Assembly: GCF_001457795.1 (NCBI RefSeq)
Contig: NZ_LN898211.1
Location: 565,038-629,037, forward strand
Length of the DNA stretch: 64,000 bases
Origin: Olsenella massiliensis
Lineage (GTDB): Bacteria > Actinomycetota > Coriobacteriia > Coriobacteriales > Atopobiaceae
Reading direction: 5' to 3'
The translations under genes were made by a program, and so were the position numbers. Of this stretch, positions 115 to 5,846 are shown one piece after another (the first letter of the stretch is position 1; each line of letters opens with the position of its first letter). The notes beneath the pieces were generated by a model. That model did not search any database and had not been told where the DNA came from. It saw only the letters and a program-made list of their open reading frames with translations.

Positions 115-945
115 TTAGCCAGGTAACGGGAATTGAAAGCCGCTGTTATTCATGAACTGGATAAGCTGAGTAACAGCAGCTGCGAACTGGGCTCCACCGT
201 TGACTCCTCGCAAGAAACCAAGCGTACTCTTGAGAACTCCCCGCTTGGGTTCGCCGCTCTCTATCTGTGTACGGACAATTTCAGCGTTATCGCGCACGTC
301 TTCAATCGTTTCAGCATCATCAATCTCTGTCTCTGCAGCGCTAAGAATCGCATCAATCAATTTATTCGAGGCGTGCTCGTCTATGCCGATGTTTTGAGTT
401 GCATTGATAGTTGAGTTGTCAGTTGCTTGGTTCATTTGCAGGTTGTGCACAGACTCGAAATTGTTTGTCACTGAATCTCCGCTATCGAGTCCCATTTCGA
501 TTCCAATCATGGTCAGATGCTCGGTTATGTTTGCGACGAGACGCCGCACAACTTTGTCCAAGAAACCTTTGTACATATCTTCGAATCTGTTTCCGCTTGC
601 AAAGGTGTAGTAGAAATAGCTTCTACCGTGAATGTTCTGGGCAATCATTTCCTTGAGGATGAGATACACTTCTGCGCTCTCTTCCTCGGGTATGGTACTG
701 AAATTAATGAAGGTGGTTCCGAGGTCCCCCGCTACCTCCCGGACGTCTTCTCCTGCATTGAAACCTTCAGGGATATGGTTATCAATGCAATCGTCGAGAT
801 ACGCCTTTATGTCCGGCTCTGCTTCAATGCGGTCAAGAAAACGCTTGAAAGGCGCTGGTGATTCCTCCCAACTCGAGCGCAAAAGTACGTTCGCCTCATG
901 GCTGAAGCGGTAGAGGGTCTTCTTAAAGGCGGTCTTATCGGTCAT
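115..945 (-). CDS. Uncharacterised protein, last gene of the McrBC operon
   Basis: 276 aa; family not recognised. Residues 1-165 look like a mostly helical, acidic globular domain. Residues about 165-200 form an Asn/Thr/Gln-rich stretch (motif DNSTINATQN). Similar linkers occur in some abortive-infection and phage-defence proteins such as AbiTii-like families, but that resemblance is from memory and weak. A helical C-terminal part ends in Gly/Gln/Phe-rich residues. The ATG overlaps the stop of the zinc-ribbon gene by 11 nt, so the two are probably translationally coupled. There is no signal peptide or clear membrane segment. Codon use is AT-rich compared with the housekeeping genes, which suggests horizontal acquisition. 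A role in defence is inferred only from the operon. Confidence 0.75.
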   Translation of the reverse strand: MTDKTAFKKTLYRFSHEANVLLRSSWEESPAPFKRFLDRIEAEPDIKAYLDDCIDNHIPEGFNAGEDVREVAGDLGTTFINFSTIPEEESAEVYLILKEMIAQNIHGRSYFYYTFASGNRFEDMYKGFLDKVVRRLVANITEHLTMIGIEMGLDSGDSVTNNFESVHNLQMNQATDNSTINATQNIGIDEHASNKLIDAILSAAETEIDDAETIEDVRDNAEIVRTQIESGEPKRGVLKSTLGFLRGVNGGAQFAAAVTQLIQFMNNSGFQFPLPG

Positions 946-1396
946 TGAAATTGCTCACCCCACATAACGGACATACGTACTTCGACATTGAAAGGAGCCG
1001 CGATACTTTCGACTGCTTTCCGCAGTGCTTGCAGGTCGTAATAGCAAGTGCATCTATAGAAGGCTGTAAGACGGGCTCGTTGTCTGGTCTTGGTTGTTTG
1101 CCTGCCTTGAACGACATGGCCTTTCCCCTGGTCTGTCTCTCGAGCTTCTTCATCTCTTTATGTATTGCATCGAACGTCTTGTTCTTGCATATAGCCGCCG
1201 CAAGGTCTATGACGTCCTCGGTCAGATAGTTTTCGGATGCGATACCACAGGCAGGGCAGCAGACTTCCAATACGTCATCCGACTCGTAATCGCCCGGCCT
1301 CAGCTTGAAGAGCTCGCCGCATTGCGGGCATTGCAGCAAAACGAACCCGTCTTCATCGCTAGGTATCTCTATAGTGAAGCTCAAGTTATCACTCAT
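935..1396 (-). CDS. Double zinc-ribbon protein
   Basis: 153 aa. Four CxxC pairs (CPQC, CPAC, CKHC, CPLC) give two zinc ribbons, one near residues 23-55 and one near 122-148, separated by a basic helical linker (EMKKLERQTRGKAMSFKAGK). Such proteins usually bind nucleic acid or protein partners; no enzymatic motif is seen. The ATG was chosen because GGAGG lies 5 nt upstream and the start overlaps the stop of the DUF6508 gene by 8 nt (ATGAGTGA). It probably acts with the McrBC operon, perhaps in substrate recognition, but that is inference. A longer version starting 18 nt upstream is possible. Confidence 0.75.
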   Translation of the reverse strand: MSDNLSFTIEIPSDEDGFVLLQCPQCGELFKLRPGDYESDDVLEVCCPACGIASENYLTEDVIDLAAAICKNKTFDAIHKEMKKLERQTRGKAMSFKAGKQPRPDNEPVLQPSIDALAITTCKHCGKQSKVSRLLSMSKYVCPLCGVSNFNDR

Positions 1397-1814
1397 TACG
1401 GCCTCCACTGTCAATCTCGCGCAGCCGCAGAAGCCAGCGTCTCATGCTGCCGTCTTCAAAGAGGGCGAGCAGAGCTCCCTCACAGAAGCGTTCTGCCCTT
1501 ACGGCCTCCAGTAGAAGCGCCATCACCACCTGGCCGTCGAGCTCCGACACATCGGCCTCGGACATTGCTTGGCTACCCCACTCGAGCCCGTTGCGCTCGA
1601 GTATGTCGCGGTAATGCGTGAGTCCGTATTCGGGATGCTTGTCGACGAAGTCGTAAATTGCCTGCTCAGTGTCGGTAACCATCGTTCCGTAGTTCACGTA
1701 GGGCATCTTGATTGGGTCATCCATGGTGCCCTTGCTCTCTCGGTCTACGACCCAGTTGCCAAATTCCTCGGTATTCTCAATTGCGGACAGATGTTTCGTC
1801 AGGCTCTCAAACAT
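1389..1814 (-). CDS. DUF6508 family protein
   Basis: 141 aa. The conserved block HPEYGLTHYRDILERNG followed by ADVSELDGQVVMALLLEAVRAERFCEGALL matches my memory of DUF6508, a family of unknown function scattered through Firmicutes and Actinobacteria, usually of this length. It is all-alpha in appearance, cytoplasmic, and shows no catalytic motif. The ATG at 1814 is preceded by AGAGG and overlaps the mcrC stop by 8 nt. The position between mcrC and a zinc-ribbon gene suggests co-translation with the restriction system. Whether it helps restriction, acts as an antitoxin-like partner or is a passenger cannot be read from the sequence. Confidence 0.75.
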   Translation of the reverse strand: MFESLTKHLSAIENTEEFGNWVVDRESKGTMDDPIKMPYVNYGTMVTDTEQAIYDFVDKHPEYGLTHYRDILERNGLEWGSQAMSEADVSELDGQVVMALLLEAVRAERFCEGALLALFEDGSMRRWLLRLREIDSGGRNE

Positions 1815-2862
1815 GAGCTGCCTCTTTCGAGAAATGCGCCTCGGCAATTTCATCGAGTTGCGAACATATCGTCTCAAAGGGCTGGTTCAGATCCAGCGTC
1901 CGTACGCTTATCTGGTTGCCACTCATCTGGTACACGCCGTCCGGCTGGATTTCTTCATCCGTCTTGGCATAGAGCAGCATGCCTGACACGCCATGCGGCT
2001 CAGTCGTGTCAGCCAGCCCCGCTTCCTTGTTCTTCACATAGGTGAAGATCTGGTACAGGTTGCCCGAGTGGGCGCTTCGCTTGTCGAACTGCTGTTGCAT
2101 TGTGCGGCTGTAGTACTTTGCGTCGATGATGAGAACAGTTCTGCCTTGTGCGAGCGTTATGTCGGTGTGCATGGTGGGGAGCATGTCATCGAAGCCGTCA
2201 TCGAGCGCCCAGCTAATGTACGGCGCCCCTGCGGAAAGCTCAGGATGCTCGCGCCTGTAGTACTCGAGGATGAACTTCTCGTATAGGTGGCTCATGCGCT
2301 GCTCGTCGAGGAAGTCCACCATACGGAGGCTCCCGTCCTCCTGTGTCTGGAGAAGGCCCTTCACGACCAGCCAGCACACGTTAATGAGCATGCGGTAGGT
2401 CTGGTTGTTCCGGTCGAAGCGCATGTGCCAGTCCTCATGCACAAGGTCTACGTCGTCCACATCCGCGAAGTACGGGAGCAGCCGCCTGAGTGCCTTCTTG
2501 CGCGCCTTGTCGATGTCCGAGCGAATCAAGAGCATGATCGTCGCCTTGAGGATGCGGTTCATGCGCGTGTCCGTGCTGAACTCGTCATAGCTGCAGACCA
2601 GCTGTCTGCGAAGAATCGAGCGCGTCTTAAGGGACTCGGACAGCTCTATCTTTCCCCTCGGGGAGGAGAGCGCCTCCTCTCGGTCGACGTATTCCCGGCC
2701 AAGGCCGCGCTTGAGCTGCAGGCTCACGCCCCGCGCCAGTATCTCGGCGAGAAGGTCGGCGGTGTTTCCGAACTCCTCTGTGCCGATGTCGCGGTAGCCC
2801 TGCCCCTGCAGCGTCTGGAACGCATAGGCGAGCATGTGGTAGATGTTCTGAATCCGAATCAC
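1807..2862 (-). CDS. mcrC: McrC, nuclease subunit of a McrBC type IV restriction system
   Basis: 351 aa, normal for the family. It begins IRIQNIYHMLAYAFQ, the usual McrC N-terminus. The C-terminal PD-(D/E)XK nuclease core is visible as D in HTDITLAQG, then IIDAKYY (D..DAK) near residues 255-270. McrC assembles on McrB hexamers, stimulates their GTPase and cuts DNA carrying modified cytosine after McrB translocation. GTG at 2862 was chosen because it overlaps the mcrB stop (GTGA, 4 nt) and gives the conserved N-terminus; a longer in-frame start at 2892 would add ten unconserved residues. Downstream it overlaps the DUF6508 gene by 8 nt. Confidence 0.93.
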   Translation of the reverse strand: MIRIQNIYHMLAYAFQTLQGQGYRDIGTEEFGNTADLLAEILARGVSLQLKRGLGREYVDREEALSSPRGKIELSESLKTRSILRRQLVCSYDEFSTDTRMNRILKATIMLLIRSDIDKARKKALRRLLPYFADVDDVDLVHEDWHMRFDRNNQTYRMLINVCWLVVKGLLQTQEDGSLRMVDFLDEQRMSHLYEKFILEYYRREHPELSAGAPYISWALDDGFDDMLPTMHTDITLAQGRTVLIIDAKYYSRTMQQQFDKRSAHSGNLYQIFTYVKNKEAGLADTTEPHGVSGMLLYAKTDEEIQPDGVYQMSGNQISVRTLDLNQPFETICSQLDEIAEAHFSKEAAHV

Positions 2863-5039
2863 TGGATGGACCTGCGCAACTTGCCCGCCCACTCATCGAC
2901 CTTAGAAGGCTCGTCGAACCAGTACTCGCGCAGCATCGGCACGAGCTCGTAGTCGACGGTTGCCGAGAGCCTTTCGTCCGTCACGTCGTCCGGGGACATG
3001 CGACAGAAGTAGCTGTGACCGATGCAGAAGTCGTTGCCGAGCGATTCGTCGGACGCGATCGCCTCGTTCAGTCTCACGACACAGGCGATGAGCCTGTCGA
3101 ATTTCTCGCTGTTCAGCGCTTCTTGGTATGCGGTGAAGCTCTCCGTGTCGAAAGCTGGTCGGAGCTCGAAGAACGCAAAGCGGCGGCGCAGGGCGTAGTC
3201 GAGCATGGCGAGCGAGCGGTCAGCCGTGTTCATCATGCCTATGAGGTAGACGTTGCCTGGGACGTAGAACAACTCGTGCGAGTAGAGGAGCTGCAGCGTG
3301 TTTCTGGGCCCGCGCTTGTCGTTCTCGATGAGCATGAACAGCTCCCCAAAGATCTTTGAGAGGTTGCCGCGGTTGATCTCGTCGATGATGAAGAAGTAGT
3401 CGTTGTCCGAGTCGTCCTGGGCCCTCTTGCAGAAGTTGTAGAACGCGCCCTTCTCGAGGTCGAAACCTTGCGCGTTCGGGCGGAAACCCTCTATGAAGTC
3501 CTCGTAGCTGTAGCTCTGATGGAACTGCACCATCATCACGCGCTCGGCGTCCTTCACGCCCATCATGGAGTAGGCCAGGCGCTTGGCGGCGAAGGTCTTG
3601 CCCACGCCCGGGGCGCCCTGCAGGATGATGTTCTTCTTCGCGCGCAGGACGTTGACGAGGGTCCTGTAGCGCTTGGCGTCCATGTAGACCTCCGAGAGGA
3701 AGTCCTCGGGCGTGTACGCCGGGTATTCGACTACGCCTGAGTCTTCCTCGGTTTCACTGTCCTCGTCCTCGAAGAGCGAATTGAGCTGCGCAACGAGATT
3801 GGGATACGCCGTGATATCCGTTAGAGGTTTCGTGGCGACGTGGTACTCGCTGCGCCACTTACCACTGTGCGTCCAGCGCACCCTACGTATGTTCGGATAG
3901 GAGTCGTCGCTCTCATCGAACTCGTAGTCCCCTTCAACAATGCCACGCCCAAGGATCTCGTCCCACCCTCGCTTCGCGAAGATGATGTCGCCCGGCTTCA
4001 GCTCGCGTGAAAACTGCCAGAGCGCGAGCGCGGAGTTCTTCTGTGAGGTCTTGCCGCTGTACAGGGTACGCAGACTCTTCCGGATGTCTTCCTTGCTGGC
4101 GTATCGTTCGGCATCGCCTAGCTTGCTCCAGCCAAGGGCCATCACGCCACGTGCGTAGAAGTCGTCCCACTTCGCAGCGCCATCTCCCGGAGAGTAGGTC
4201 CAGTAGTGCGTAGTCTCGATTCCCCCGTCTCCGAGGGCGTTCTCCTCCGCCCTTTCGGAAGCGGCCTTCTCGGCAGCCTTCCTCTCCTGATTGACGCGCT
4301 CGGACTCCACAAAAGCGGCAGCCGTCAGCGAGGGGAAGTCTGCATACGGGCACTCGTCGCTTCCGAGCCTTGACTTGATGGCATCACATATGGCGAGGTA
4401 GCGTTCGCCATCATGAATAGGTGCATCCTTCTCCTTCGGGACAATATCGGCGATGGCGGTGCCAGCCTTTGCAACATCGGCCATGAACCAGCGGTTGCGC
4501 GAGTCCAAGCTGATAAAGTTGTAGGGCCTCGCCCAGTAGAGGCCCATGGTGAGCTTCCAGCCAAGCGTGAACTGGGTGACGGCGGCATCGAATGCCTCTA
4601 CGAAGGCCCTCCGGTTCTCCTCGTTGTCGTCGGCGGTCAGTGCAACCTCGGCCTCGAACACGCACCAGAGGTTGTCGATGTCGTGCTCGCCGCGCCGGTC
4701 GTCTTCGGCGAAGGCATAGAAGGTCGCGTTGAGGTTGTTGAGCACGGGAATACCCTCGAAATCCGTGGGCTGGTCTGCCCCGACGCCGAAAACCCCGGCG
4801 ATGCCAGCGATGATCTTTTGCCGGTTTGCGTCCGTGATGCCCTTGTTGAAGAGGCCGAAGACGGTGAATGGGTCGATGTCGTGTAGCTCATCCGCCTCAA
4901 GCTTGGGAAGACTCATTCCAATCGATTCGTAGACTGATGTCAGCTTGTTTATCAGGACGTCGCGCCTGCTTCGACAGGCCAACAGCTTGTCGGCCAACTC
5001 TTCATAAAAGTTAATCCAAGCGAATTGTGCGCTGGTCAT
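2859..5039 (-). CDS. mcrB: McrB, GTP-driven AAA+ subunit with EVE-like reader domain
   Basis: About 726 aa. The AAA+ domain (roughly residues 455-720) has Walker A GAPGVGKT, Walker B with the McrB signature IIDEINRGN..KIFGEL, and MNTADRS, the McrB-specific GTP-recognition/sensor segment, then LRRRFAFFEL. Ahead of it, around residues 275-425, a region starting HYWTYSPG..KWDDFYARGVMALGW resembles the EVE/PUA-like domains that replace the DUF3578 reader in many McrB proteins and bind modified bases. The first 250 residues are unassigned and end in a Glu/Lys/Ala coiled-coil-like stretch. ATG at 5039 has AGGTAG upstream; a GTG at 5048 is the alternative. The gene overlaps mcrC by 4 nt. Confidence 0.92.
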   Translation of the reverse strand: MTSAQFAWINFYEELADKLLACRSRRDVLINKLTSVYESIGMSLPKLEADELHDIDPFTVFGLFNKGITDANRQKIIAGIAGVFGVGADQPTDFEGIPVLNNLNATFYAFAEDDRRGEHDIDNLWCVFEAEVALTADDNEENRRAFVEAFDAAVTQFTLGWKLTMGLYWARPYNFISLDSRNRWFMADVAKAGTAIADIVPKEKDAPIHDGERYLAICDAIKSRLGSDECPYADFPSLTAAAFVESERVNQERKAAEKAASERAEENALGDGGIETTHYWTYSPGDGAAKWDDFYARGVMALGWSKLGDAERYASKEDIRKSLRTLYSGKTSQKNSALALWQFSRELKPGDIIFAKRGWDEILGRGIVEGDYEFDESDDSYPNIRRVRWTHSGKWRSEYHVATKPLTDITAYPNLVAQLNSLFEDEDSETEEDSGVVEYPAYTPEDFLSEVYMDAKRYRTLVNVLRAKKNIILQGAPGVGKTFAAKRLAYSMMGVKDAERVMMVQFHQSYSYEDFIEGFRPNAQGFDLEKGAFYNFCKRAQDDSDNDYFFIIDEINRGNLSKIFGELFMLIENDKRGPRNTLQLLYSHELFYVPGNVYLIGMMNTADRSLAMLDYALRRRFAFFELRPAFDTESFTAYQEALNSEKFDRLIACVVRLNEAIASDESLGNDFCIGHSYFCRMSPDDVTDERLSATVDYELVPMLREYWFDEPSKVDEWAGKLRRSIQ

Positions 5040-5433
5040 TATAGTCACTACCTATCTTGAGCCTCTGCCAAGAGCCCAAAGCTCCGCGATTCCAATTTTT
5101 TTTGACACCCGGCAGGTCGTCGGAGAAATCGTCCGGGGCCACGTCCCTGAGGAACGCCCTGGCGCTCCGGATGGCGATGGCCTCCTCGAGCGTCCGAGCA
5201 TTCGCGTATTCTTCCGTTTCATAATCGAGGACGGTGAATTGCTCGCCTTCGCATTTCTTTGGCCTAGGCAGGCCAAGCGCCTCGTCGTCCACCCTCTTTC
5301 CGCCTTTCTTGGATGATGCTGTAGCTGATCGGAAGTCGAGCTCGTCGGGTCGAAGCCGGACACTCCGCCCACGGCAAGCATCGCATCTGGTCGCGCGGCC
5401 TTGGATTTCACGCGCACCGCGTCTCGCGGTCAT
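5011..5433 (-). CDS. Possible small gene or gene remnant ahead of mcrB
   Basis: An open frame (at most 168 aa if started at 5517) ends 29 nt inside mcrB in another frame. Its second half (motifs DYETEEYANARTLEEAIAIRSARAFLRDV and ALGSWQRLKIG) looks protein-like, while the first half is Arg-rich and unconvincing. No good ribosome binding site is seen, so the start given is arbitrary. An A8 tract on the coding strand (T8 at 5096-5103) makes a frameshift or length polymorphism possible. It could be the first gene of the restriction operon, a decayed gene, or noncoding leader. I do not recognise the family. Confidence 0.3.
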   Translation of the reverse strand: MTARRGAREIQGRATRCDACRGRSVRLRPDELDFRSATASSKKGGKRVDDEALGLPRPKKCEGEQFTVLDYETEEYANARTLEEAIAIRSARAFLRDVAPDDFSDDLPGVKKNWNRGALGSWQRLKIGSDYNDQRTIRLD

Positions 5434-5740
5434 TATCGCATGGGACGTGGACATCGCAGGTTGCGAAAGGCGGCTTGCTTCTAGGGCGTTCGGAGGGATC
5501 GAGATGATCGAGCCCAAGTCTGGGTCGAGGAGTGGAGGGTCACGGTCGCCTCGGTCGCCGAGCTCTTTGAGCTGCGGCGGGTCTCGGCGCGCCCGTTCTG
5601 CTCGAGGGCGGCTGTCTCACGGTGATGGCGGAAGACGCCTGAATGTTATTTGCATGATCACCCTGGTGCAGTTCGCTGCTTGGGAATTTACAGGCTGTTG
5701 GGATGGCTCCGAATTTGGGCTCCGTGTGACTGGTCGTTCG

Positions 5741-5846
5741 GGTCTGACAAGGTCTGGTGGAGGTTCGACAACCCTACGGACCAAGATGAGCATTTCGAGT
5801 GACCCCGGTACCTGAGGTCCGACAAGGTTCGACAGAGGTCCGACAA
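5741..5846. repeat. Five direct GGTYYGACAA boxes, helically phased
   Basis: Near-identical 10-mers start at 5741 (GGTCTGACAA), 5762 (GGTTCGACAA), 5816 (GGTCCGACAA), 5826 (GGTTCGACAG) and 5837 (GGTCCGACAA). Spacings are 21, 54, 10 and 11 bp, all close to whole helical turns, so the boxes would lie on one face of the DNA. This is typical of iterons or clustered regulator sites. No adjacent replication or partition gene is visible. Confidence 0.7.

Follow-up and report, generated by a model that had tools for sequence, protein, structure and literature searches.

Five overlapping genes at the mcrBC locus

Five genes follow one another in tandem on the minus strand of the window (the whole stretch of 64,000 nucleotides of Olsenella massiliensis DNA that was analysed), in the order mcrB, mcrC, a DUF6508 gene, a zinc-ribbon gene and a gene for a 276 amino acid protein. 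All five ORFs were confirmed, as were the single direction and the overlaps of 4 nt (mcrB/mcrC), 8 nt (mcrC/DUF6508), 8 nt (DUF6508/zinc ribbon) and 11 nt (zinc ribbon/276 amino acid gene) described in a first-pass annotation. The complete operon was found in just one further genome (G072), from another genus of the window's own family, where all five proteins are 81–89% identical to those of the window. Because of this copy, and because the family matches are well above cut-off or full length, these are considered to be real genes and not chance ORFs. For GC-rich loci, a simple script based on codon usage, not a gene finder, was used to call ORFs. A 93 amino acid reading frame (5011–5292, minus strand) overlaps the start of mcrB and is possibly a remnant.

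McrB (5039–2859, minus strand; 726 amino acids) is the GTPase. A profile search placed an AAA_5 domain at residues 470–621 (E 1e-23), and the Walker A motif (GAPGVGKT) and the classic NxxD motif (MNTADRS) were read from the translation. No family was assigned to the N-terminal region, and the middle region (residues ~280–400) is presumed by us to be possibly EVE-like. A PDC-S02 match in McrB is a second hint, beside the sequence, of an EVE domain; neither the Pfam EVE family nor a PDB structure search gave a match for one. McrC (2862–1807, minus strand; 351 amino acids, GTG start) matches PF10117 (E 2e-37) and the NCBIfam McrC family (432.9 bits, above the cut-off of 338), and its translation contains a nuclease motif of the PD-(D/E)xK type (TDI...IIDAKYY). 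Judged from the GTPase motifs of McrB and the nuclease motif of McrC, the pair belongs to McrBC type IV restriction, which restricts modified DNA. The operon shares with canonical McrBC the GTPase motifs of McrB, the McrC nuclease and adjacent genes with a 4-nt overlap, but differs in two additions: a DUF6508 gene, which one relative has joined to mcrC, and a tail cassette that can be exchanged.

The CoCoNuTs are a branch of McrBC in which McrB has an NxD motif and the operon also encodes zinc ribbons and additional effectors (PMC11090510). The window operon is similar in being McrBC-derived and in encoding zinc ribbons and extra genes, but the zinc ribbon is here the product of a separate gene, and membership is ruled out by the GTPase motif, which is NxxD and not NxD.

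The two tail proteins were identified with PADLOC, both matching essentially over their full length. The zinc-ribbon protein (1396–935, minus strand; 153 amino acids) is PDC-M14A (match over residues 1–148, E 6e-51). The 276 amino acid protein (945–115, minus strand), wrongly described in the first-pass annotation as an unknown, is PDC-M14B (match over residues 1–276, E 4e-159). The two genes, being adjacent and overlapping, constitute a PDC-M14 candidate system. The PDC families were reportedly introduced in a preprint by Payne et al. in 2024. PDCs are putative candidates recently found through 'guilt by embedding', and are mostly unvalidated (PMC12988326). A literature search, with the source preprint outside the comparison, found no paper naming PDC-M14 or DUF6508.

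M14A contains two four-cysteine ribbons (CPQC/CPAC and CKHC/CPLC), with the ligands C23, C26, C47 and C50 in the first and C122, C125, C142 and C145 in the second. Across 18 relatives all of these except C122 are invariant; in most of the relatives the eighth cysteine is instead adjacent to C125. In the structural model (mean pLDDT 82.6) the ribbons are connected by a long helix (residues 60–88). The M14B model (pLDDT 81.2, pTM 0.54) comprises an N-terminal (residues 4–150) and a C-terminal (residues 190–267) helical domain and an Asn/Gln/Thr-rich linker (residues 155–186), which is flexible or disordered in the model. Neither model gave a significant fold match against the PDB, no nuclease or protease family was detected in either protein, and no catalytic motif was seen in M14B. 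The maximum Kyte-Doolittle hydropathy of the window copy of M14B is 0.86, with no strong transmembrane segment; in some relatives a value of 1.9 is reached close to the C-terminus. The lack of a motif and of a fold match and, for the window copy, the weak hydropathy argue against a nuclease or pore function of M14B.

DUF6508 and the mcrB-mcrC-DUF6508 core

The third gene (1814–1389, minus strand) encodes a 141 amino acid protein that matches PF20118 with 49.3 bits (curated cut-off 23.6; E 6e-13) and has no structural match in the PDB. Of 296 genomes sampled from the class, one per species, 30 have DUF6508, and the family recurs around type IV and type II restriction genes and possibly ADP-ribose enzymes. 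Its adjacency to mcrC was judged from 1.5-kb flanks and, at some loci, from longer regions. The gene lies directly 3' of a window-like mcrC in the window, G072, G345, G076 and G084, and in G204 McrC and DUF6508 form one frame of 485 amino acids (L073 196–1653; McrC 5e-30, DUF6508 1e-6); no further fusion was found in the samples of 296 genomes from the class and 396 from the phylum. The mcrB-mcrC-DUF6508 core is found in five genomes besides the window, in three families. For this Pfam family, whose function is unknown, the fusion provides an initial clue.

The first-pass annotation had proposed a five-component system in place of McrBC with random neighbours. Random neighbours are ruled out by the operon copy in another genus and by DUF6508 lying behind, or fused to, mcrC in six genomes, and the M14 pair is itself a defence candidate that recurs behind many defence operons; in that respect the proposal holds. 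The co-occurrence it suggested looking for, that of the three accessory genes beside mcrBC, was found for DUF6508 in five other genomes and for the full set only in G072.

The McrC proteins of G345, G076 and G084 are 90–94% identical to that of the window. Since McrC from G345, a member of another family, is closer to the window's (93.7%) than is McrC from G072 in the window's own family (89.5%), the comparison suggests that the core has been transferred horizontally.

Matches to mcrC were found in 41 genomes of the class sample, and the best 30 loci were inspected for genes behind mcrC, again on 1.5-kb flanks or, at some loci, longer regions. Other than DUF6508, these tails comprised nothing evident, DUF6998 (L091, L097) or an AAA_21 ATPase (L101), and in G328 (L099 2556–3116) a gene for a SLATT_4 effector with two transmembrane segments overlaps the mcrC stop codon by 4 nt. 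Because the tails at these 30 loci vary, DUF6508 is, on the evidence of gene order, a genuine partner of the window's McrBC branch, though not a universal one.

Two further arrangements of DUF6508 were observed: a DUF6508-NADAR fusion behind a GmrSD_N-like protein (L064 1408–2556), and a DUF6508 gene between MmeI-type and GmrSD genes (L084 6002–11289).

Exchange of the tail cassette

In G345, G076 and G084 the core is kept at 87–88% DNA identity, and the downstream flank, with a UPF0102 gene, at 85–88%. The stretch between them, window positions ~78–1392, which includes both M14 genes, has no homology in these genomes (24–34% identity in forced alignments with G345 and G084). In bins of 200 bp the core and downstream flank are mostly 81–97% identical, compared with 24–34% in between, and the boundaries of the swap are the DUF6508 stop codon and a point ~37 nt past the M14B stop codon. 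The replaced stretch holds a single gene for a protein of 258–260 amino acids with a helical part and a PF18742 DpnII-MboI REase domain (E 1e-44 and 2e-41), a domain also found in the Aga_Helical-REase proteins of PADLOC. M14A is absent from all three whole genomes.

These genomes bear directly on the proposal of a single obligate machine of five components, with all three extra proteins acting on McrBC. The five genes are co-inherited in the window and G072, the overlaps are tight and DUF6508 is fused to McrC in G204, all of which would be expected of such a machine. Tight coupling does not, however, show obligate partnership, because overlaps of 4–11 nt are common in bacterial operons and because the swapped-in nuclease gene of G345 also overlaps DUF6508, by 17 nt. 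G345, G076 and G084 carry the core without M14AB, which speaks strongly against an obligate machine, and M14AB accompanies many other systems; a five-component reading is therefore highly improbable, and this part of the first-pass proposal is not upheld. A working partnership of M14AB with the core is possible in the window and G072, where the operon is conserved as a whole.

The G+C content at third codon positions (GC3) falls along the operon, from 0.81 in mcrB and 0.79 in mcrC to 0.69 in DUF6508, 0.61 in M14A and 0.55 in M14B, the last being the lowest value among 37 genes measured in the window; for the nuclease tail it is 0.56. Both tails appear to have been added later, from a source of lower GC. 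The operon is flanked by a NikA-like gene, a convergent UPF0102 gene and integrase pieces in the window genome (L010 9469–12071, just left of the window) and in G345 (L076 4977–6971), suggesting that in these two genomes it may lie in a mobile element.

Window-type and G345-type operons are natural near-isogenic pairs with the same core and different cassettes, in which the contribution of the cassette can be asked directly. What had been an anonymous tail of hypothetical genes becomes a testable rule, that of a fixed three-part restriction core with an exchangeable effector cassette.

PDC-M14AB in other contexts and its possible role

A genome scan for M14A with short peptide patterns gave 19 loci, which are a sample and not a census. 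M14AB was found with type I RM (L029, L033, L046), type III RM (L028, together with a Schlafen-type gene, and L085), PglX-PglZ (L034), SNF2-PLD (HKD and SNF2; L035, L038) and the DRT2 reverse transcriptase (L036, L037). In Bifidobacterium pullorum (L040) it lies directly behind mcrBC without DUF6508, and an IS-like sequence interrupts M14A after 77 codons (5589–5819); this M14A is 79% identical to that of the window and the McrC only 53%, an incongruence between module and host operon. Stand-alone pairs are present in Gordonibacter (L031), in Bacillales (L041, L043–L045) and on a Lysinibacillus plasmid, beside a divergent HTH gene. The two genes overlap by 11 or 14 nt at every locus measured outside the Bacilli. 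Matches in a viral collection included type I RM loci with M14AB between HsdS and HsdR (e.g. L147), and an M14A-M14B pair (L149 8001–9243) within a 126-kb phage-like contig; a search of phage records for M14B gave no match. Phages may themselves be carriers of M14AB. Taken together, the loci compared show, at the level of gene content, that core and module each occur without the other and that the cassette has been exchanged at a sharp boundary.

In a tree of M14A and M14B, at least five partner changes are needed among 13 partnered loci, in which six partner types are present. Because five is the minimum for six types, the tree shows a separate acquisition for each partner type but does not prove repeated switching. 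A well-supported clade that contains the window includes both McrBC and type III RM partners. Nuclease-protease pairs have likewise been acquired repeatedly by unrelated immune systems (PMC12799240). M14AB resembles them as a two-gene module taken up by otherwise unrelated systems, but M14A and M14B are unrelated proteins, in which no nuclease or protease family was detected.

The stand-alone copies, on the Lysinibacillus plasmid, at L031, L041 and L043–L045 and on the phage-like contig L149, could mean that M14AB is a complete and independent two-gene defence system that merely uses the promoter of its host operon, giving layered defence with no mechanistic link to McrBC. The lack of a common mechanism among its partners (RM I, RM III, McrBC, DRT2, SNF2-PLD) agrees with this. 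M14AB, however, starts within ~10 nt of, or overlapping, the end of the upstream gene at 9 of the 12 assessable partnered loci, and also at L147 and L148, and several type I RM loci have it between the HsdS side and HsdR. Such close spacing and position favour co-regulation or co-function, and full independence, the main rival of the explanation preferred below, seems possible but less likely.

Alternatively, M14AB might be a restrainer or adaptor of DNA-cleaving systems, with the ribbons binding DNA ends or the nuclease and so limiting self-damage or widening recognition. DNA is cleaved or translocated by most of the partner systems (RM I, RM III, McrBC, SNF2-PLD), M14AB lies between HsdS and HsdR in L147, and zinc ribbons are common nucleic-acid-binding folds. 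Yet the DRT2 partner is a reverse transcriptase, stand-alone and phage-borne copies are found, and a nuclease can fill the slot instead; we regard this role as improbable.

The explanation we lean towards, and which we think somewhat probable, is that M14AB is a portable second-line module that sits in an accessory slot following a three-part McrBC. The core would be a type IV restriction system with McrB as motor and reader, McrC as nuclease and DUF6508 as a protein working with McrC, and would form the first line by cutting modified incoming DNA. The 3' end of the core would be the accessory slot, occupied here by PDC-M14AB. M14A, with two zinc ribbons on a helical rod, may be a sensor or adaptor that binds nucleic acid or a partner, and M14B, with its two helical domains and flexible linker, would be the effector co-translated with it. 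M14B could then provide a second layer, probably growth-arresting, once the first line is engaged or failing. An effector role is preferred to a helper role because the other slot occupants, the DpnII-MboI nuclease and the SLATT_4 of a more distant McrBC, are of effector type; we infer it from slot position and from the nature of these alternative occupants. The housekeeping surroundings of solitary M14B-like genes fit less well with a defence effector.

More tentatively, M14AB may be a general-purpose portable second-line effector that responds to a signal common to unrelated DNA-targeting systems, with the 3' end of McrBC as a docking slot, an extension that we consider possible but not likely. 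The shared trigger might be DNA ends or stalled translocases detected by the paired zinc ribbons, and the docking-slot modules (M14AB, nuclease, SLATT, DUF6998) would be exchanged by recombination. The presence of M14AB with at least five other defence types raises the question of which signal they have in common.

PDC-M14A/B as a listed candidate defence pair and McrBC as type IV restriction are already known. We found no earlier description of the cassette swap, the DUF6508 core or the McrC-DUF6508 fusion, and no text turned up on PDC-M14 itself, on its exchange with a nuclease gene or on its link to mcrBC-DUF6508; whether the wide embedding of M14AB among defence systems is new is uncertain.

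Solitary M14B-like proteins, with a shortened linker and without M14A, are encoded at L013 10025–10831, L014 9831–10592 and L016 9883–10659. In these three genomes the genes sit among housekeeping genes, with an lgt-like neighbour in two.
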